This document shows, piece after piece, positions 12,248 to 47,100 of a DNA stretch of 64,000 bases (position 1 is its first letter; every line of letters begins with the position of its first letter). A model generated the notes under the pieces. That model was not told the DNA's origin, did no database searches, and worked only from the letters and a program-made list of their open reading frames with translations. The stretch covers positions 124,001 through 188,000 of the forward strand of contig CAJJBX010000005.1 in assembly GCA_905182555.1 (NCBI GenBank), written 5' to 3'. The translations under genes were made by a program, and so were the position numbers. This stretch comes from an uncultured Ilumatobacter sp. (GTDB lineage Bacteria > Actinomycetota > Acidimicrobiia > Acidimicrobiales > Ilumatobacteraceae).

Positions 12248-13381
12248 ATGACCAACGAGGGCAATCGCGACGCTGACCTCTGGGCCAACACCAGCCCGAC
12301 CCCACCGACCCCACCGACCACGCCGACCCCGCCGACCCCGCCGACCCCACCGACCGCCACCCGGCGAGGTGGCGGTGGTTCTGACATACCCCCCAGCGGT
12401 CAACCACCCGCTGCTGGTCGGTCTCAATGGGGCGGGCCGGCAGCAATCGGACTCCTCGTCGGCGGCGTCATCGCAGCGATCGTTGTTCTCGTCCTCACCC
12501 GTGGCGGTGACGACTCAGTGCAGACCGTCGACGAGTCGACCACGACCGCGTTGATCGACTCGACGATTCCCGCCGAAACGACGATTGATCCGCCCACAAC
12601 GGTCCTTGCGGAGCCGACCGCCCCTTCGTCTGATACGACAATCGGTCCGACAACCACCGAGGCGACAGAGACAACCACGACGCCGGCCACCACATCCGCG
12701 CCGGCCACGACCGCCACCTCGACAGGGCCAGCGCTGGCCTCTCCGGGCACCGTCCGTGTCGATGGCGTCGAGTATTCGATTGAGCGCTCCTGCTTCACGG
12801 TGCCACTCGCACCCAGCTACACCGACCTGCAGGTGTTCAGCCACCTGATCAACATCGATGGCACATCTGCGATCGTCGAGCAGTGGTTCGACGAGGGCGG
12901 CATCACCGGCGGCGCATTTTCGGTTCGCGGGTTCCCTGCCGAGACTGGCAAGTTCCTCGAACTCGATCAGGGATATGCCTTCGAAGCCCCTACGGGTTCT
13001 GGCAGCTTCAGCATCGTCGCGAATCCACCGAGCACAGGTTCAGACTGCGGCAGCGAACAGAGGATCCAGACGTTTGGCGCCAACGACAAGCCGCTGTACT
13101 TGCGAGCCCTGGTCGATGCGTGCTTCATCTCCAACAACGCGGGCGAGTCAACGGTGGTCGGCTACGGGTCTGACCTCGGCCGTGTCGAAATCACGAGCGA
13201 TGCCGATGGCAACTCCTTCATGACGTATACCGACCCTGCCATCCAGCTCGACCGCGCAGCTGCCGAGATCGTCGGTGACGGCGGTTCGGTCTCGTATCGA
13301 GCCCAGCTCGCCGATGGCTCTGTGCTCGTCACCACGCAAGACAGCCTCGTACGCGACTGCACAAGCGCCGACCTTGGATAA
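12248..13381 (+). CDS. Hypothetical membrane-anchored protein with Pro-Thr repeats and exported domain
   Basis: 377 residues, not matched to a named family. Residues about 14-38 form a proline-threonine repeat (TPPTPP units) from a CCGACCCCAC-type DNA repeat. A single hydrophobic helix at about 66-86 (GGPAAIGLLVGGVIAAIVVLV) is followed by a long Thr/Pro/Ala-rich linker (about 90-165) and a C-terminal globular domain (about 170-377) with four cysteines. Topology is probably N-in with the C-terminal domain outside. The linker resembles an actinobacterial cell-wall spacer that may be glycosylated (inference). Standing alone between selO and a convergent esterase gene. Confidence 0.75.
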   Translation: MTNEGNRDADLWANTSPTPPTPPTTPTPPTPPTPPTATRRGGGGSDIPPSGQPPAAGRSQWGGPAAIGLLVGGVIAAIVVLVLTRGGDDSVQTVDESTTTALIDSTIPAETTIDPPTTVLAEPTAPSSDTTIGPTTTEATETTTTPATTSAPATTATSTGPALASPGTVRVDGVEYSIERSCFTVPLAPSYTDLQVFSHLINIDGTSAIVEQWFDEGGITGGAFSVRGFPAETGKFLELDQGYAFEAPTGSGSFSIVANPPSTGSDCGSEQRIQTFGANDKPLYLRALVDACFISNNAGESTVVGYGSDLGRVEITSDADGNSFMTYTDPAIQLDRAAAEIVGDGGSVSYRAQLADGSVLVTTQDSLVRDCTSADLG

Positions 13382-13395
13382 GTCAGTCGGATAGG

Positions 13396-15063
13396 TCAGA
13401 TCAAAGGGTCAGCTACTGACTCAGAGGAAAGCAATTCCGTGAGCCAATCGATTCGCTCACGCATGATCTCGATCCCCGTGCTCGGCGGCACGGGGCCCAC
13501 TGCGGACCGGGGCCGATCGAACACCATGTGCTGCGGGTCGCCCTGGTCATAAGCAGGCCAGGTCTCGCGGCCAGGCGAATCCGGCACTCCGGTTGCTGCG
13601 AAGGCAAACCAGCGGTCACCCATCTCACGAATCGTCAGGTGCGCGTCGTCGGCAACGGGCACCAGCGGGAACGACGTATCGAAGACGTAGAAGATCTCCG
13701 CAGCGTGAAACGCACCTGCGGTCTGCTTCTTCGACGGCGGCGTCGCGGTGAAGTAGTAGCGGTACACCTGGTTGCCACTGGCCGCATGCTCGCGGGCCGC
13801 ATGCTCGACGTGCACACCAAATATATGGTCGCAGCCATGGTCGGCAACCGACGACCGTTCAGCAGTCGCGAGGCCTGGATAGGCGCCCATCAAGCGGTCG
13901 ACGTGGGATTGGCTCGGGTAGGAAACCGCAAACATCTCCTGCATGTCCTGCAGCGATACGGGTGGCAGATTCTCGACGCTGATGTCGCGATAGAACTCAC
14001 CGCCTGCCGGATGCATGAAGTCGACGAAAAGCGTGGTTTCGTCCGAGTTGTAACCGATCATCAGCGGGACCGACGCCTGCAGCTGCGCACTGAATGCCGA
14101 CATCGGCGCCATCGGCAAGATCTCGTCATCGACCGCCGGGTAAAAATGACGACCGAGCAACGGGAGCTTCTGGTAGTACTCGGTGAGCTCCTCGGGTCCC
14201 AGAGCACGCATTCGTTCGATCTGGCCTGGCTCGGAACCAACCACGGCCTTCGCAAACTCGACGCCGGCGTCTTCGGCTGGTAAGAAATCAAGCGCCGGCC
14301 GCCGAAGCTGTAACCACCGGCCGCTATCGCTCGGACTCTGCGCGATCGCACGGTGAAACAGGCCACGCGCCCGCGGGGTGGTCATCATGTTAAGAACGGC
14401 TTGGCCACCAGCCGACTCACCGAAAATCGTGACACATTCCGGATCGCCGCCGAAGCTGGCGATGTTGTCGCGCACCCATTCGAGTGCGGCAACCTGATCG
14501 AGTAAGCCGTAGTTACCAGACACCCGATCAGGTGACTCTTCGGCGAGTTCCGGGTGAGCCAGGAAGCCGAACATGCCGAGGCGGTAGTTGATTGTCACGA
14601 GCACACACCCGCGTTCGGGGAGTACGTCGCTGTTGTAATGCGGCTCGGTTCCGCTGCCGTCGGTGTGATCGCCACCGTGGATCCACACCATGACCGGCAG
14701 CTTCTCGGCGTGCGAAGGTGCATGAATATTCAGTTGTAGACAGTCTTCACTTTGCTTCAGGTTGGCGACTTTGAGGCTCGCAGCTAACGCCTTCTTGCGT
14801 GCCCGACCCAGCCCGAGCCCGTCGATAAGGGTGTTAAAGAACAACTCGAAGCCTGCTGCAAGCTGGTACGCATGCGGCCCAAACTTGGTACAGGTCAGCG
14901 TGCCACTCCATGGCTCAACTGGCTGCGGCGGCTGCCACCGGAGCGGGCCGACCGGTGGTGCCGCGAAAGGTATGCCCCGGAAGTGCAGCATCCGACCCTT
15001 GGACCCGACGGTTCCCTTGACCTTTCCGGCAAGAGTCGTTGCAGTCGTTGTCCGCGAAGTCAT
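13396..15063 (-). CDS. Type-B carboxylesterase
   Basis: Alpha/beta hydrolase of the carboxylesterase/cholinesterase family, 555 residues from ATG 15063 (an in-frame ATG at 15126 gives 576 but no family match and lacks the AAGGGTGG-type ribosome binding site). N-terminal RGIPFAAPPVGPLRWQPPQP, oxyanion loop WIHGGDHTDG and nucleophile elbow FGESAGG are clear. The acid is probably the Glu in NSDETT and the catalytic His that in FHAAEIFY. No signal peptide, so probably cytosolic. Substrate unknown. Convergent with the preceding membrane-protein gene, divergent from fhs. Confidence 0.9.
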   Translation of the reverse strand: MTSRTTTATTLAGKVKGTVGSKGRMLHFRGIPFAAPPVGPLRWQPPQPVEPWSGTLTCTKFGPHAYQLAAGFELFFNTLIDGLGLGRARKKALAASLKVANLKQSEDCLQLNIHAPSHAEKLPVMVWIHGGDHTDGSGTEPHYNSDVLPERGCVLVTINYRLGMFGFLAHPELAEESPDRVSGNYGLLDQVAALEWVRDNIASFGGDPECVTIFGESAGGQAVLNMMTTPRARGLFHRAIAQSPSDSGRWLQLRRPALDFLPAEDAGVEFAKAVVGSEPGQIERMRALGPEELTEYYQKLPLLGRHFYPAVDDEILPMAPMSAFSAQLQASVPLMIGYNSDETTLFVDFMHPAGGEFYRDISVENLPPVSLQDMQEMFAVSYPSQSHVDRLMGAYPGLATAERSSVADHGCDHIFGVHVEHAAREHAASGNQVYRYYFTATPPSKKQTAGAFHAAEIFYVFDTSFPLVPVADDAHLTIREMGDRWFAFAATGVPDSPGRETWPAYDQGDPQHMVFDRPRSAVGPVPPSTGIEIMRERIDWLTELLSSESVADPLI

Positions 15064-15133
15064 CCACCACCCTTGCACGTCGTGCCAATGCACGCCTCCT
15101 TCCGCGTATTCGTGAGGCCACCTCACATGACCA

Positions 15134-15176
15134 TTGACACACCCCTCAATTATTCTGTATCGTGGAACCGTTCCAC
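15134..15176 (+). promoter_or_regulatory. Candidate fhs promoter with operator-like palindrome
   Basis: TTGACA at 15134-15139 and TATCGT at 15158-15163 are separated by 18 bp, a plausible sigma-70-type promoter reading toward fhs. Over the -10 end lies a perfect inverted repeat GTGGAA-CCG-TTCCAC (15162-15176), a typical position for a repressor site. A seven-codon open frame (15178-15201) follows before the fhs start at 15304; I see no riboswitch-like fold that I can name. The regulator is unknown. Confidence 0.4.
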
Positions 15177-15303
15177 CATGCGGATTTATGCAGCGATGTA
15201 AGGCGAGCGCAGTCAGTGGTGGTCAGATCAATAGAAAGACTGCGCGGACTTCGATCCGGGCGGCGACTCGCATCCACTCAGGTCGGTGCAGAATGGACAC
15301 AAC

Positions 15304-16988
15304 ATGGGTTTCCCCTCCGACCTTGATATCGCCAGCAAGGCGACGCTCAAACCGCTCACCGAGGTCGCTGCTGAGTCTGGTATTCCGCTCGAGCACCTCG
15401 AGCCCTACGGTTCCGGCGCTGCAAAGATCCAGCTCGAAGCCATCGAGAAGATGCAAGACCGACCAAAAGCGAAGTACGTCGTGGTCTCCGCGATCACACC
15501 GACGCCCCTCGGCGAGGGCAAGACCACCACAACCGTCGGCCTGGGTATGGGATTCAGCCACATTGGCAAGCGCGGCGTCATTGCCATCCGCCAGCCCTCA
15601 ATGGGCCCGACGTTCGGCATCAAGGGCGGCGCTGCCGGCGGCGGCTACAGCCAGGTCGTGCCGATGGAGCTACTCAACCTGCACCTCACCGGCGACATGC
15701 ACGCCGTCACCGCAGCGCACAACATGTGCTCGGCTGCCCTCGACGCCCACCTCTTCCACGGCAACGACCTCGCGCTCGACATGCACAACATCACGTGGCG
15801 CCGAGTCATCGACGTCAACGATCGTGCGTTGCGCAACGGCGTCATCGGCCTCGGCGGCCGCCTCGACGGCGTACCGCGTGAAACAGGCTTCGACATCACC
15901 GCCGCCTCCGAAGTGATGGCGACCCTGGCACTCTGCACCTCGCTGCAGGATCTGCGCGAACGACTCGGCCGTATCGTCGTCGGCTACACCAAATCCGGTA
16001 CGCCCGTCACAGCCGAAGAGTTGAAGGTCGCCGGTTCAATGGCAGTCATCCTGCGTGAGGCCATCAAGCCCAACCTGATGCAGACCCTCCAAACTCTGCA
16101 CACCCAGCTGGGATGGTTCTTGATCGTCAGCAATGCTCTATCGTCGCCGACCGCATCGGCATCCACATGGGCGACTACCTGATCACCGAGGCTGGCTTCG
16201 GCGCCGACATGGGCGCCGAACGCTTCTTCAACATCAAGTGCCGCGCGTCCGGCCTCAAGCCCAGCTGCGCCGTGCTCCTCGCCACGGTGCGAGGGCTCAA
16301 GGCACACTCAGGCAAGCACACGATCGTCGCCGGCAAGCCACTACCCGAAGACCTCCTCAAGGAGAACCCGGACGAAGTGCACCAGGGTGGCGACAACCTC
16401 CGCAAACAGCTCGAGAACATGCGGATCCACGGCTGCACGCCGGTCGTGGCAATCAACGTTTTCCCCGGCGACCACGACGCAGACATCAACGCGATCAAGG
16501 AAATCGCCGAGGAGTTCAACGCTCGTTCGGCAGTCTCGATGCACTTCACCGAAGGCGGCGCCGGCGCCACCGACCTGGCCCACGCTGTCGCCGAAGCCGC
16601 CGAAGAAGAGTCGAACTTCCAGGTGCTTTACCCAGACGAGATGAGCCTGCGCGACAAGATCACCACCGTTGCCCAGAAGGTGTCCTCCGCAACTGCGCCG
16701 AGTTCTCGGCCGCCGACCGTACGCCCCAAAGACAACTACGAAGCAAACGGCTTCGGCAACCTGCCGGTGTGCATCGCCAAATCTCACCTGTCGCTCTCCC
16801 ACGACCCCAACCTCAAGGGTGCGCCCACCGGCTGGACTCTTCCTGTGCGCGAGGTTCGCGCCTCGGTCGGTGCTGGTTTCGTCTACCCAATCTGCGGCGA
16901 CATGCGCACCATGCCAGGCCTTGGTAAAACGCCAGCGCTGCAGACCATCGACATTGACGCCGACGGCAACATCGTCGGCCTCAGCTAA
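15304..16988 (+). CDS. fhs: Formate-tetrahydrofolate ligase (damaged reading frame)
   Basis: ATP-dependent formation of 10-formyl-THF from formate and THF. ATG 15304 begins the family N-terminus. The P-loop region TPTPLGEGKTTTTVGL, RQPSMGPTFGIKGGAAGG and the DMHAVTAAHN segment are intact. Near 16085-16140 the conserved family segment GPFANIAHG is unreadable in any frame, and the frame shifts before SIVADRIGIHMGDYLITEAG. From about 16684 to 16730 the sequence reads better in another frame (NCAEFSAADR), then returns for EANGFGNLP. The C-terminus (APTGWTLPVREVRASVGAG) is normal. Whether the gene is really broken or poorly sequenced cannot be decided here. MetF-like gene follows after 32 bp. Confidence 0.85.
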
Positions 16989-17020
16989 CAGCTCTTCAAA
17001 CGAACAACGGAGGAACAACG

Positions 17021-17829
17021 ATGTCTGCCGAAGCAAAAGAATTGCCTGCCATGGCCGCCAACCGGCGGCGCCGCGGGCTTCGACGGCCCCTCCTCCTGCC
17101 CGGGGCGTCACCGCTCCGATCGGTGATCGAAAACGCCAAGGTCGAGCTCATTCCAATGAAGAGCCTCGAGCGTGCAATCTCGGAACTCGCACCGGCGTCG
17201 CACATCTCCATGACTTGCTCGCCGGCGAAAACTATCGAGACGACCCTCGACGAAACTGCGGCACTCGTGGCAGCCGGCCACTCGGTCACGCCCCATATCT
17301 CGGCGCGCATGGTGCAAACCCACGATCATCTCAGGCAGATCCTGGATCGACTCGCCGTAATCGGCACGCGAGAGATTTTTGTCGTCGGCGGCGACGCCGA
17401 CCCACCCGGCTGCTTCTTCGACGCCATCGAGTTCATCGCAGCGCTCATCGCACTCGACGAACGCGAACGCGCCCCGTCGTCGACCACATTGGCTACACGT
17501 CGTACCCTGACACTCACCCCTTCATCACCAATGAGCAGCTCCACGATGCGTTGCATGTCAAACAGAAAATGATTCTCGAATCCGGCCGGACCGCACACGT
17601 GTCGACGCAAATGTGTTTCTCGTCTGACCAGATCCGCGACTGGCTGCGACGGGAACGAGCCGCTGGTTTGACCATCCCGGTGCACCTCGGCGTTCCGGGC
17701 GTGATCGACAAGGCGAAGCTGATGACCATGGGCGTCCGCCTGGGCGTGGGTACATCGCTGCGCTACCTGTCCAAGAACAAGAAGGCCCTCGGCAAGATGA
17801 TGACACAGCGCGCATTCGAACCCGATCAA
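17021..17829 (+). CDS. Methylenetetrahydrofolate reductase-like protein, frameshifted and 3'-truncated
   Basis: TIM-barrel enzyme of the MTHFR superfamily; would reduce 5,10-methylene-THF to 5-methyl-THF. ATG 17021 has a strong GGAGG ribosome binding site and follows fhs by 32 bp, so the two are probably one operon. Recognisable parts are HISMTCSPAKTIETTLDE, GHSVTPHISARMV and EIFVVGGDADPPGCFFDA. A base is missing from the C run at 17472-17475; adding it joins the frame to DHIGYTSYPDTHPFI and VHLGVPGVIDKAKL. After FEPDQL (17830) the expected C-terminal 50 or so residues are absent and a topoisomerase I-like fragment follows. Codons 14-30 (RRRRGLRRP) may also be out of frame, since another frame there reads more naturally. 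Confidence 0.7.
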
Positions 17830-17921
17830 CTACTCAAGTCTTATCAAACGCCTCGAAGAACTTGGCATTGGCCGTCCCTCAACCTATGCCAGCATTCTGC
17901 AACCGCCTCGAGAACCGCAAC
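17825..17921 (+). pseudogene. topA: Fragment of DNA topoisomerase I (topA) fused to the metF-like 3' end
   Basis: In the frame starting at 17825 the DNA reads SSLIKRLEELGIGRPSTYAS followed by ILQ, which carries the near-invariant bacterial topoisomerase I sequence LEE.GIGRPSTYA. With a one-base shift at 17903 it continues RLENRN (17904-17921), as expected for the next topA residues. No other part of topA is present on either side. The 26 in-frame codons (17825-17902) are 47% G+C by my count, with 13 of 26 ending in G or C, visibly poorer than neighbouring genes. It abuts the metF-like gene on the left and an 11-bp tandem repeat on the right. Confidence 0.75.
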
Positions 17922-17983
17922 CCCGCCTCAACCCCGCCTCAACCCCGCCTCAACCCCGCCTCAACCCCGCCTGATTAGTTCGG
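17921..17983. repeat. 11-bp tandem repeat (CCCCGCCTCAA, five units plus a partial)
   Basis: Five perfect copies of CCCCGCCTCAA from 17921 to 17975, then CCCCGCCT. It sits between the topA fragment and the convergent 3' end of the MFS gene, whose stop codon it overlaps. An unrelated 11-bp repeat lies at the thpR stop codon (21560-21614). Confidence 0.9.
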
Positions 17984-19405
17984 GTCGTGGTGTTCGTGGC
18001 GGCGCGACACCACGGATCGGCCGACCGTTTTGGTGGCCTTGACCGGCAGAACGACGAGGCGGATTGCCATGTTCGAGGCACGCGCCGGGAACGGCACGAA
18101 CTTGGTTTGACGTTCACTCGGTAGCGCCTCCTTGAAGGCGATCCGATAGGCGACGAAAGCAAAAATCACCGAGAACGCCGCGCTCATCGTGAAGAAGAAC
18201 GCGTCGTCGCCGAACCATGACATCAGTGAGGCAGCGACGAGTGGTCCGACCAGGGCACCCGAGCCGTTAATCCGCACCAATGTGCCCGCTGCACCTACCG
18301 TCTTTTCGACCGGTGTCCAGTCGAGCGTGTACGAGACCACGAGTGAGTACAGCGGGAACATCGTGCCACCGATACCGAACATGATGAGCAGCATGAGCGC
18401 GCTGTCTGGCCGAACTGTCGAAGCAATCACGGACAAGGCTGCTGCTGCGATCACGACGCCAAAGATCACGTTGCGCCGCGACACCCGGTCGGAAAGGCGA
18501 CCAACCGGCCACTGGAGGACAATGGCGCCGATCGTCGGGGCGATCAGGAACGCCGCTGTGCGATGGACCGACAAGCCGCTCCTCGTGGCGTAGAGCGCCG
18601 CGAGGCCGAGCAACACACCGGCCGAAGCACCACTCATGAACGATCCAACAACGCCCGTCGGGACGTAGCCGATCAACTCTCGGATAGAGACTTTCTCAAT
18701 CGGGCGACTCGGCGGCACCTTCGCTGCAGCCGCAAGCGTCACGGGGACGAGCGCCAGTGAAACAAGTACCGATGAGACAATGAACAGGCGAAAGCCATTG
18801 GGGTCAGCGACGGCAATGAGGTACTGGCCGATGCCCAGCCCGGCCATCGAGACAATCATGTAGACAGCAAGCGTTCGTCCCCGATTCGCCGGAGTCGAGA
18901 GTTCGGCTAGCCACGACTCGATCACGATGTACAGCCCGGCGAAGCAAAAGCCGAACACAAAGCGCATTGCAGTCCACGTCACCGGCAAAACCGACAGGGC
19001 GTGAATCAGGACCGCACTCGACGCCAACGACGCCAGTCCGGCGAAGACACGGATGTGACCAACGGACGCGATCATTTTCACAACAAGACTTGGCGCAATC
19101 AGGAACCCAGCGAAGTAGCCCGCCATGATCACGCCGGTGACAACGACGCTGAAGCCCTCACTGCCCGAGCGGACGCCAATCACTGCACCGTTCAGCCCGT
19201 TGCCAATCATCAGCAAGCCGAGGCCGAGAAATAGCGCCCAGAGACCAGCAGCAGAATCGCCCTCCGGCTCAGCTGCGAGGTCCTCGTACTGGGTCCGCTG
19301 ATAGCCAGCGTGGCTCGACCCACCGTCGCGAGACGCGTCGATTCCACCGTTCGCCGCTGGGATCTCTGCGTCCTCAGCAGGATTGGGCTGTTCCACGATG
19401 GGCAA
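17975..19405 (-). CDS. MFS transporter (YcaD/TetA-like)
   Basis: 476 residues. A hydrophilic N-terminal extension of about 50 residues precedes twelve predicted membrane helices (about 55-435), then a basic tail of about 40 residues. The second-to-third helix loop and the FCFAGLYIVIESWLAELSTPANRGRTLAVY segment resemble the YcaD/YfkF branch of major facilitators. GRLSDRVSRRNVIFG is the second-half copy of the MFS loop motif. Substrate unknown. The 3' end overlaps the tandem repeat at 17921-17983. Confidence 0.85.
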   Translation of the reverse strand: MPIVEQPNPAEDAEIPAANGGIDASRDGGSSHAGYQRTQYEDLAAEPEGDSAAGLWALFLGLGLLMIGNGLNGAVIGVRSGSEGFSVVVTGVIMAGYFAGFLIAPSLVVKMIASVGHIRVFAGLASLASSAVLIHALSVLPVTWTAMRFVFGFCFAGLYIVIESWLAELSTPANRGRTLAVYMIVSMAGLGIGQYLIAVADPNGFRLFIVSSVLVSLALVPVTLAAAAKVPPSRPIEKVSIRELIGYVPTGVVGSFMSGASAGVLLGLAALYATRSGLSVHRTAAFLIAPTIGAIVLQWPVGRLSDRVSRRNVIFGVVIAAAALSVIASTVRPDSALMLLIMFGIGGTMFPLYSLVVSYTLDWTPVEKTVGAAGTLVRINGSGALVGPLVAASLMSWFGDDAFFFTMSAAFSVIFAFVAYRIAFKEALPSERQTKFVPFPARASNMAIRLVVLPVKATKTVGRSVVSRRHEHHDPN

Positions 19406-19475
19406 GCCGCAGAAATCTAGCCGCCTGGGCCCCTTCGAATTTCAAGTTGACAAGTTTGCGAGAGAGTCACCGAGC

Positions 19476-19865
19476 TCAGCGGTGGCGACCGCGGAGCTTG
19501 TCGAGTTGCCGCCGGTCTCGCTTGGTCGGTCGACCAGCGCCGCGATCTCGTTCGAAGATCGGCGGGGACAGCGGATCGCGTTCAGGCGGTGGCGGACTGT
19601 GATCAACGAAGCAACTGACCGCGACCGGTGCGCCGACACGCTTGGCAACAACTGTGACCACATCGACAATTCGTTCCCGCTGGTTCAGGCGCGCCTCGAT
19701 TCGATCACCGACCTTGACAGCAGACGAGGGCTTCGCTGGTTTGCCATTAATCTTGATGTGCCCCGCCCGGCATGCTCCGGCGGCGTCGGAGCGCGTCTTG
19801 GTGAGTCGAACCGACCACAGCCACTGATCAACTCGCGCGCTCTCCACACCTCCATCTTGCACCAC
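19476..19865 (-). CDS. S4-domain RNA-binding protein (Hsp15-like)
   Basis: 129 residues with an N-terminal S4 domain (about 9-70): RVDQWLWSVRLTKTRSDAA and GHIKINGKPAKPSSAVKVGD match the helix-helix-strand core of Hsp15/HslR-type ribosome-rescue proteins. The C-terminal tail is basic (KRDRRQLDKLRGRHR), fitting RNA or ribosome binding. A role in handling stalled 50S subunits is known for Hsp15 in E. coli and is only inferred here. Divergent from the acyl-ACP desaturase gene with 61 bp between starts. Confidence 0.85.
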   Translation of the reverse strand: MVQDGGVESARVDQWLWSVRLTKTRSDAAGACRAGHIKINGKPAKPSSAVKVGDRIEARLNQRERIVDVVTVVAKRVGAPVAVSCFVDHSPPPPERDPLSPPIFERDRGAGRPTKRDRRQLDKLRGRHR

Positions 19866-19926
19866 AAATTGGCCATATGTCGCGCCCGGCTCGCATGGCT
19901 ACCTACTGGTCGGTAGGCTGCATGTT

Positions 19927-20847
19927 GTGAACGAGCAGGAAATCCTCCACGCCATCACTCCCGACGTCGAGCAGTTGCTCGAACGGCATCTGGAGACCAC
20001 CAAAGAGTGGTTCCCGCATGAGTATGTGCCGTACAGCCGCGGTCGGGACCACATGGAGGGGCATCAGTGGACCCCCGCCGATGCCGATCTCGCCGGTGCG
20101 CAACTTTCTGAAGAGGTCCGCAGCGCGCTGCTCGTCAACCTCCTCACCGAAGACAACTTGCCGTATTACTTCCGGTCGGTCGAGCGGATGTTCGGTAAAG
20201 ACGGCGCCTGGGGCGAATGGGCCCGCCGCTGGACTGCCGAAGAAGGTCGTCACTCGATGGCGATCTATGGCTACATCACCGTCACGCGGGCGATCGACCC
20301 AATCGAGCTGGAGCGGAGCCGAATGGTACAGGTCAGCAAGGGCGAGACGCCTGACCCCGAGACCACCCACGATGGTTTCATTTACCTTGCTTTGCAGGAA
20401 CTCGCCACGCGAATCTCGCACCGCAACACCGGTGCCCAACTCGGTGACGACGTCGGCTTCAACCTGCTCAAGCGAGTGTGCAGCGACGAAAATCTGCACC
20501 AGCTTTTTTATCGCGATCTCGCAGCAGCGGCCATCAAGGCCGACCCGAACACGATGATGATCGCAATGGAAAAGCAGGTCCGTTCGTTCGCGATGCCGGG
20601 TACTGGTATTCCTGACTTCGAGCGGCATGCCAAGGCCATTGCCCGTGCCGGCATCTACGACCTACAGATCCACCACGAACAGATTCTGGCCCCCGTGGTC
20701 CTGCGCCAGTGGGACGCTGCGAACATCACAGGCCTCTCCGGCGAGGGTGCCGCAGCGCAGGAACGCTTGATGAAGCGGATGGCAACCAGCGCACGTGTTG
20801 CAAAGCGGTACGCCGAAAAGCGCGATGCCCAAATGCAACCGGCCTAA
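19927..20847 (+). CDS. Acyl-ACP desaturase (DesA-type, fatty acid desaturase type 2)
   Basis: Soluble di-iron enzyme that introduces a double bond into ACP-bound fatty acids using O2 and ferredoxin; 306 residues, start GTG 19927. Di-iron ligands are visible as Glu in TEDNLPYY, the EExxH motif in EEGRH, Glu in LQELATRISHR and the ExxH motif in DENLH, spaced as in the family. Actinobacterial DesA1/DesA2 are the nearest known types; position specificity cannot be read from sequence. Monocistronic by arrangement. Confidence 0.92.
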   Translation: MNEQEILHAITPDVEQLLERHLETTKEWFPHEYVPYSRGRDHMEGHQWTPADADLAGAQLSEEVRSALLVNLLTEDNLPYYFRSVERMFGKDGAWGEWARRWTAEEGRHSMAIYGYITVTRAIDPIELERSRMVQVSKGETPDPETTHDGFIYLALQELATRISHRNTGAQLGDDVGFNLLKRVCSDENLHQLFYRDLAAAAIKADPNTMMIAMEKQVRSFAMPGTGIPDFERHAKAIARAGIYDLQIHHEQILAPVVLRQWDAANITGLSGEGAAAQERLMKRMATSARVAKRYAEKRDAQMQPA

Positions 20848-20867
20848 CCCACAGCCGGTTGTCGCAG

Positions 20868-20963
20868 CTAGGCGAACGCCGTTCCCGCCACCATGGCGAC
20901 AATGAGCACCATCAGCCCGAACAACACGAGGCGGCGCTTCATGTCTGAATGCTGTGATTTCAT
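20868..20963 (-). CDS. Possible small single-pass membrane protein (31 aa)
   Basis: Minus-strand frame from ATG 20963 to TAG 20868 encoding 31 residues: a short charged N-terminus with MKRR, then an uninterrupted hydrophobic helix (LVLFGLMVLIVAMVAGTAFA). An inner ATG at 20942 would leave 24 residues, essentially KRR plus the helix. The basic-then-hydrophobic order is typical of genuine small membrane proteins, but there is no clear ribosome binding site and no comparison available. It fills the gap between desaturase and thpR. Confidence 0.35.
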   Translation of the reverse strand: MKSQHSDMKRRLVLFGLMVLIVAMVAGTAFA

Positions 20964-21065
20964 GAGTCAATTGTCGCCCGTTTCGACGAGAAGCGTCCAG
21001 ACACCCTGCTGGACCCGAGCGGAGTCTGGGTTGAGAACACCCCGCCGCCTGCAACCCTGCTCGTG

Positions 21066-21563
21066 ATGAGTCGACTGTTTCTTGCCGTCTGGCCAACGGC
21101 CAACGTTGTCGAAATGCTCACCGAGTTACCCCGCAAAGACCAGCAGGGAGTGCGCTTCGTCGCACCAGAGAACTGGCATGCCACGCTCCGCTTTCTCGGC
21201 GAGGCCGACATTGACAACGTGTGTGAAGCAATGAATCGCGCTGAACTGCCAGCGGCAGTCGCGCGAGTCGGCCCGGCCATCGACATGCTCGGAACGCATT
21301 CGGCAATGGCACCGGTCAACGGGATCGATGCACTTTCTGCCGCCGTGGTAGAGGCAACAGCCGGTATCGGCAGTCTCGATCCGCGGCCGACGTTCACCGG
21401 CCACATCACCATCGCTCGAGTCAAGCGTGGTGCCATCGTGCGCAAGGTCGTTGGCATGCTGTGCCAGGCAGAGTTTGACGTTGATGAGGTTGCCCTCGTA
21501 GAGAGCCGCCTGCACCCAGGCGGCGCTCGCTATGCAACTGTTGCTACTTGGCCCACCCGCTGA
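21066..21563 (+). CDS. thpR: RNA 2',3'-cyclic phosphodiesterase (2H/LigT family)
   Basis: 165-residue 2H phosphoesterase. The two HxTx motifs that define the active site are HATL (in NWHATLRFLGE) and HITI (in FTGHITIARVK). The N-terminus SRLFLAVWP is typical for ThpR. The start is ATG 21066, directly after a GTG that could also serve. ThpR opens 2',3'-cyclic phosphates of RNA ends; the physiological RNA is unknown. The stop codon is the first part of an 11-bp tandem repeat. Confidence 0.9.
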   Translation: MSRLFLAVWPTANVVEMLTELPRKDQQGVRFVAPENWHATLRFLGEADIDNVCEAMNRAELPAAVARVGPAIDMLGTHSAMAPVNGIDALSAAVVEATAGIGSLDPRPTFTGHITIARVKRGAIVRKVVGMLCQAEFDVDEVALVESRLHPGGARYATVATWPTR

Positions 21564-21614
21564 CTCTGTGCTGACTCTGTGCTGACTCTGTGCTGACTCT
21601 GTGCTGACTCTTTG
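21560..21614. repeat. 11-bp tandem repeat (CTGACTCTGTG, five units) at the thpR stop
   Basis: Four perfect units and a fifth with one change (CTGACTCTTTG), beginning one base before the TGA of thpR so that every unit carries TGA. No inverted symmetry or T-run, so not an ordinary terminator. Confidence 0.9.
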
Positions 21615-21676
21615 CTGATCCGCCCGCTGACCCGACTTGAGAACTCGACCTGCCAAGCCAGCACTACTGTCGGGAC

Positions 21677-22240
21677 ATGACCGATGGCGCTGACGACCGG
21701 CTTCCCACGCGCGTCCAGACACCCCGACTACTCCTGCGGTGTTGGCAGCACGACGAAGCCTCGATACTCGGCGACCTCGTCGAGGGCAACGTTGAGCATC
21801 TCCGACCGTGGATGCCCTGGATCAAATTTGAACCACAAACGGTCACCGAACGCGTCGCGTTGATCGAAACGTGGACTCGCCAGTGCGAGGAAGGCGGCGA
21901 CGTCGTGTTCGGCACGTTCTTTGACGGCATCGCGATCGGGAGCTGTGGGCTCCACCGTCGCGTTGGCGCCGGCGCACTCGACATCGGCTACTGGATCGCT
22001 GATGACCATACGCGGCGCGGATTCGCCACAGAGATCACCTCGGCGTTGACAACCACGGCGTTCGGCGTCGCTGGCATCGAACGCGTCGAGGTCCACACCG
22101 ATGAGGCCAACGAGGCAAGCGCTGGCGTTCCCGCCAAGCTTGGCTTCCACCGCGACCGAGTCATCGAAAAAGAGCCAACAGCAGTTGCGGAGTCTGGGCG
22201 GTCGGTTATCTGGACGATGGCCCAAGCCGACTGGTGCTAA
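21677..22240 (+). CDS. GNAT acetyltransferase (RimJ/RimL-like)
   Basis: 187 residues from ATG 21677. TPRLLLRCWQHDEA is the characteristic first strand and helix of the RimJ/RimL-type group; GYWIADDHTRRGFATEITSA is the acetyl-CoA pyrophosphate-binding loop (Q/RxxGxG/A region) and EVHTDEANEASAGVPAKLGF the C-terminal strand-helix, where an Asn is usual at the position read as Gly-Val (a slight deviation). Substrate may be a protein N-terminus, an antibiotic or a small amine. Convergent with the nitroreductase gene, stops 8 bp apart. Confidence 0.85.
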   Translation: MTDGADDRLPTRVQTPRLLLRCWQHDEASILGDLVEGNVEHLRPWMPWIKFEPQTVTERVALIETWTRQCEEGGDVVFGTFFDGIAIGSCGLHRRVGAGALDIGYWIADDHTRRGFATEITSALTTTAFGVAGIERVEVHTDEANEASAGVPAKLGFHRDRVIEKEPTAVAESGRSVIWTMAQADWC

Positions 22241-47019: not shown

Positions 47020-47044
47020 CCCGGCCGACGCATCGCCGGATTCG

Positions 47045-47092
47045 CCTCTCTCAACCCTCGCCTCTCTCAACCCTCGCCTCTCTCAACCCTCG
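47045..47092. repeat. 16-bp tandem repeat (CCTCTCTCAACCCTCG, three units)
   Basis: Three perfect units between the cytochrome c stop and the first recognisable codons of the flavoprotein gene. They lie where its ribosome binding site and start codon should be. Confidence 0.9.
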
Positions 47093-47100
47093 CCTTCCCC

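Follow-up and report, generated by a model that had tools for sequence, protein, structure and literature searches.

The end of the metF-like gene in this uncultured Ilumatobacter is occupied by 68 bp identical to topA of an alphaproteobacterium, UBA4588. We consider it very probable that the substitution is an assembly error, namely a similarity-guided mis-correction or mis-filling with the sequence of a co-assembled organism. The window (the whole stretch of 64,000 nucleotides that was analyzed) sits on contig 5 of a metagenome-assembled genome (MAG; G000) of 2.56 Mb, which comprises 26 contigs and is 72.7% complete. A tRNA scan of the whole window found none. The features discussed below are collected in Table 1.

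Table 1. Features of the fhs–metF region and of the rpoB/rpoC stretch (window positions unless stated otherwise)
Feature	Position	Strand	Basis or remark
Second unrelated patch, in fhs	16093..16137	+	alignments; edges approximate
MTHFR-like (metF) body, frame broken at about 17460-17472	17021..17838	+	tblastn with G004 ORF
topA patch, 68 bp	17835..17902	+	sequence comparison; identical to UBA4588 topA (DGJU01000033.1, L033:2065-2132)
CAAG at left junction, common to metF side and topA side	17835..17838	+	alignments with G004 and donor
21-bp core, 19/21 to G004 metF tail, 2 bases out of register	17851..17871	+	comparison with G004
15 bp between patch and repeats	17903..17917	+	differs from donor topA
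Five perfect copies of CAACCCCGCCT	17918..17972	+	Tandem Repeats Finder, 100% matches
TGA aligned with metF stop codon of G004	17972..17974	+	alignments with G004
rpoB and rpoC, indel-rich stretch	G000 contig 5: 68062-75505 (L044 8062-15505)		indel comparison with G006 and G008

An earlier reading of this DNA, made without database searches (the sequence-only reading), had recognized a topoisomerase I fragment behind the metF-like frame and had regarded a chance match as very unlikely. The fragment is indeed there and is also matched by the PF01131 profile (G000:C5:141819-141902, E 5.3e-5), although the match stays below the family cut-off (22.7 bits against 35.1) and spans 28 of 411 profile positions. 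It resembles bacterial topoisomerase I (TopA) in matching part of a genuine topA exactly over 68 bases, but differs in being a scrap of only about 22 codons. Since all 68 bases equal those of one alphaproteobacterial topA, from the MAG UBA4588 (DGJU01000033.1), chance is excluded. The suggestion that the piece came from foreign topA DNA therefore holds, with UBA4588 as the donor lineage. When a degenerate pattern of the fragment's protein was run against genome_contigs, it recovered two stretches, both in Alphaproteobacteria UBA4588 MAGs. A second UBA4588 record, L032, differs from the patch at several sites. A donor-family search covering 61 genomes returned matches in 25 at a threshold of E 1e-3; one was perfect, and the runner-up reached 90% over 83 bases. 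A literature search for UBA4588 returned nothing.

The sequence-only reading had also proposed comparing the fragment with topA of this genome and of other phyla. The topA of the host differs in sequence, has no DNA match to the fragment and was rejected as donor; the exact match lies in alphaproteobacterial UBA4588. A phage or plasmid origin was rejected as well, as searches of plasmid and phage collections at E 1e-3 were negative and viral contigs contained no exact 32-base match. The MAG's own topA (L002, contig 11, downstream of 48508) changes frame after an open frame of 623 codons, and its C-terminal repeats carry on in another frame. The patch occurs once in the whole G000 assembly, and the 8-kb donor locus has a single match there, which is the patch itself. 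Within the genus it was found in one of ten genomes, its own, the other match being 42 bases at 83% in G005. Its G+C content is 50.0%, compared with 61.5% across the window; the 47% given in the sequence-only reading refers to a slightly different piece.

The metF gene itself is damaged. With the metF ORF of the sister genome G004 as query, tblastn recovered the window gene in two frames (89.6% and 96.7% amino acid identity). The MTHFR profile PF02219 matches the G004 protein at E 4.7e-8 (profile positions 38-276 of 287); in the window it matches the second half of the gene below the cut-off (E 5.8e-4) and gives no match in the first half. An unbroken gene with a C-terminal segment of the HLYTFN type, as expected for this family, is therefore not what the window holds: the frame is split in two and the tail is gone. 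The loss of the gene's end had been noted from the sequence; the last 35 or so codons are missing, and the topA patch and the repeats stand in their place; in G004, 84 bases separate the position of the left junction from the last metF codons. The similarity to metF had been thought to end at 17825, but the resemblance to G004 continues to 17838 (CTCAAG).

Relatives retain this end. In 15 loci from relatives, most of them picked for DNA resemblance to the window at metF, a single alignment reached the TFN-type C-terminal end in 14 of 14 metF matches; the locus without such a match is that of G006, brought in through a neighboring transporter gene. Six of the remaining nine genomes in the genus show the metF end (G001, G003, G004, G007, G008 and G009), and none was seen in G002, G005 and G006. 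A normally continuing metF in a related genome had been named as a sign of an assembly artefact, and this is what the relatives have, but a real event private to this genome predicts the same.

The sequence around the patch is unreliable. Across ten gene intervals compared with G004, there are nine frame-breaking gaps: three in fhs, which lies upstream of metF, six in metF and none in the other eight intervals. Four of the six metF gaps are pieces of the patch and the array, which leaves five independent gaps. Further gaps lie outside the compared intervals, for example at 13380, 19419, 20848, 21559 and 21652. In addition, about 45 bases of fhs bear no relation to the corresponding positions of G004 and G008; a search for their source gave only the sequence itself in its own genome and no match among plasmids.

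Another damaged stretch lies on the same contig. There, rpoB is recovered in 13 pieces that overlap in part and rpoC in eight, and several of these matches contain stops. Over the 7.6 kb of this stretch, intergenic sequence included, 76 indels are private to G000; 72 of them are frame-breaking, and 56 of the 76 are single bases; the corresponding numbers are six (four frame-breaking) for G006 and seven (five frame-breaking) for G008. A living cell needs both genes, and the assembly therefore holds error-filled stretches. Thus, errors incompatible with a living cell are found on the contig of the patch (rpoB/rpoC), and errors incompatible with a working gene right beside it (fhs and metF). Since dnaE is intact in G000 while rpoB and rpoC are broken, the errors come in stretches. 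A lookup in G000 of 25 G008 genes, represented by ORFs picked by length alone, gave seven internal frame breaks, and the reciprocal lookup of 25 genes gave none; one or more of the seven (b1 is a case) may reflect natural variation at the end of a gene.

Short tandem arrays are another feature of this assembly. The five 11-bp repeats reported behind the fragment are present, and near-perfect arrays also lie in the window at 12296-12361, 21559-21618 and 47042-47095, with others on further contigs. Arrays with a period of 8-30 and at least 95% matches make up 45 rows, some of which overlap one another, across about 442 kb of G000; the counts are two for about 242 kb of G008 and six for 180 kb of G006. 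Such arrays may be under-counted in fragmented short-read assemblies. At all three arrays that could be compared (12296, 17918 and 21559), G004 lacks the expansion.

We next consider why this particular piece of topA is found at this particular place. The 21-bp core resembles the metF tail because LEELGIG is encoded at this point in both genes. No site but the core, across the donor's 8-kb locus, agrees with the tail of G004 metF at 16 or more of 21 positions. When 64-base pieces were drawn at random 20,000 times from eleven loci of the donor family, which include the motif itself, six draws reached 19 matches. Because the core matches at 19 of 21 positions, lies nearly in register and has no rival site in the donor's 8 kb, sequence comparison identifies the fragment as the donor's look-alike of the metF tail rather than a random scrap. 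The idea that the patch is symmetric about this core proved wrong, as 16 bases lie to its left and 31 to its right. At the right edge CAA may be shared, but the repeat unit also starts with CAA, and the sharing hinges on the native sequence there. The residues RLENRN had been read as a continuation of topA; they fall outside the identical donor stretch, which stops at 17902. Beyond that point the window reads CCGCCTCGAGAACCG and the donor GTTCTTGAGAAGCG, whereas L032 reads CCTCGAGAAGCG, slightly nearer to the window than DGJU01000033.1. The 15 bases at 17903-17917 may stem from altered topA, from the junction or from the original end of metF.

The sequence-only reading had proposed three origins, of which the chimeric or assembly option is the best supported, given the broken frames of metF and fhs and the unreadable rpoB and rpoC. 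According to the model we favor, the assembly would mix accurate sequence with stretches rich in one-base indels, fhs–metF being one of them. During correction, polishing or gap filling, the end of metF would have been swapped for UBA4588-like alphaproteobacterial sequence from the same data, which presupposes that the donor occurred in the same sample. The donor's topA would have been picked because its LEELGIG codons resemble those in the metF tail. The overall pattern suggests noisy long-read sequence, possibly in a hybrid data set, in a partly corrected assembly. Parts of PMC11552494 describe long-read and hybrid metagenome assemblies in which genes are fractured by indels, and note that wrong sequence can arise where the alignment of reads to conserved regions is ambiguous. 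The present case is like those errors in both respects, but the case in those parts of PMC11552494 concerns different strains, whereas the patch in metF originates in another phylum and its likeness to the site extends only over a short motif.

Several observations count against an artefact. The patch shows no mismatch over its 68 bp, and short shared bases, CAAG at the left edge and perhaps CAA at the right, would also be produced by short-patch illegitimate recombination. No second exact UBA4588 piece turned up in the regions compared: none was found in window positions 14000-22000 against G060 and G061, and none in rpoB/rpoC, where G061 matched at 68-77% and G060 gave no match. Nor is the noise everywhere, as the intact dnaE and the eight of ten intervals without a frame-breaking gap indicate.

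The main alternative, which we regard as unlikely, is that metF was truncated in the living actinobacterium by natural cross-phylum recombination, either short-patch double illegitimate recombination (SPDIR) or a homology-facilitated form. An extracellular piece of topA would have annealed at the 21-bp look-alike, and about 84 native bases would have given way to about 64 (64-68) foreign ones. SPDIR leaves short shared bases at both junctions. Harms et al. 2016 is reportedly the primary paper on it. The patch is like an SPDIR product in being a short foreign segment that stands in for native DNA and can be traced to a donor, the topA of UBA4588, at 68 of 68 bases; it also has a few common bases at one edge, CAAG at the left junction, and a similar core almost in register. 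Moreover, the window rejoins the G004 sequence at the stop codon of metF. Both short-patch double illegitimate and homology-facilitated illegitimate recombination are described processes, as set out in parts of PMC7192050. On the other hand, metF sits amid further frame breaks, the RNA polymerase genes of its contig are unreadable, and the patch is private to one of the ten genomes of the genus, so that no second genome carries it.

A physically chimeric read or library molecule, formed in the same DNA pool and entering a low-coverage stretch of the assembly, is less probable still: it would be in keeping with the short shared junction bases, the foreign donor and the locally poor sequence, but random ligation is not expected to hit the donor's one near-register look-alike site. 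That the fragment was captured and is functionally tied to the 11-bp repeat, for example as part of a repeat-associated element, is a suggestion that we can practically dismiss: patch and repeat lie only 15 bases apart, but the patch occurs only once in the assembly, it gave no match in plasmid and phage collections at E 1e-3 and no exact 32-base match in viral contigs, and near-perfect arrays are frequent elsewhere, the one at 21559 having clean G004-aligned flanks with no foreign patch.

Under the preferred reading of an assembly error, a foreign motif can be perfect, lie within a gene and still stem from assembly. Given the frame-breaking indels in rpoB and rpoC, gene calls from the G000 MAG are to be treated with care. 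Checking whether the contig in question has readable essential genes, rpoB and rpoC for instance, helps to tell assembly errors from rare recombination, and mining MAGs for short-patch gene transfer would need a filter of this kind. If the recombination were real after all, the patch would represent a rare case of cross-phylum short-patch exchange in the wild.
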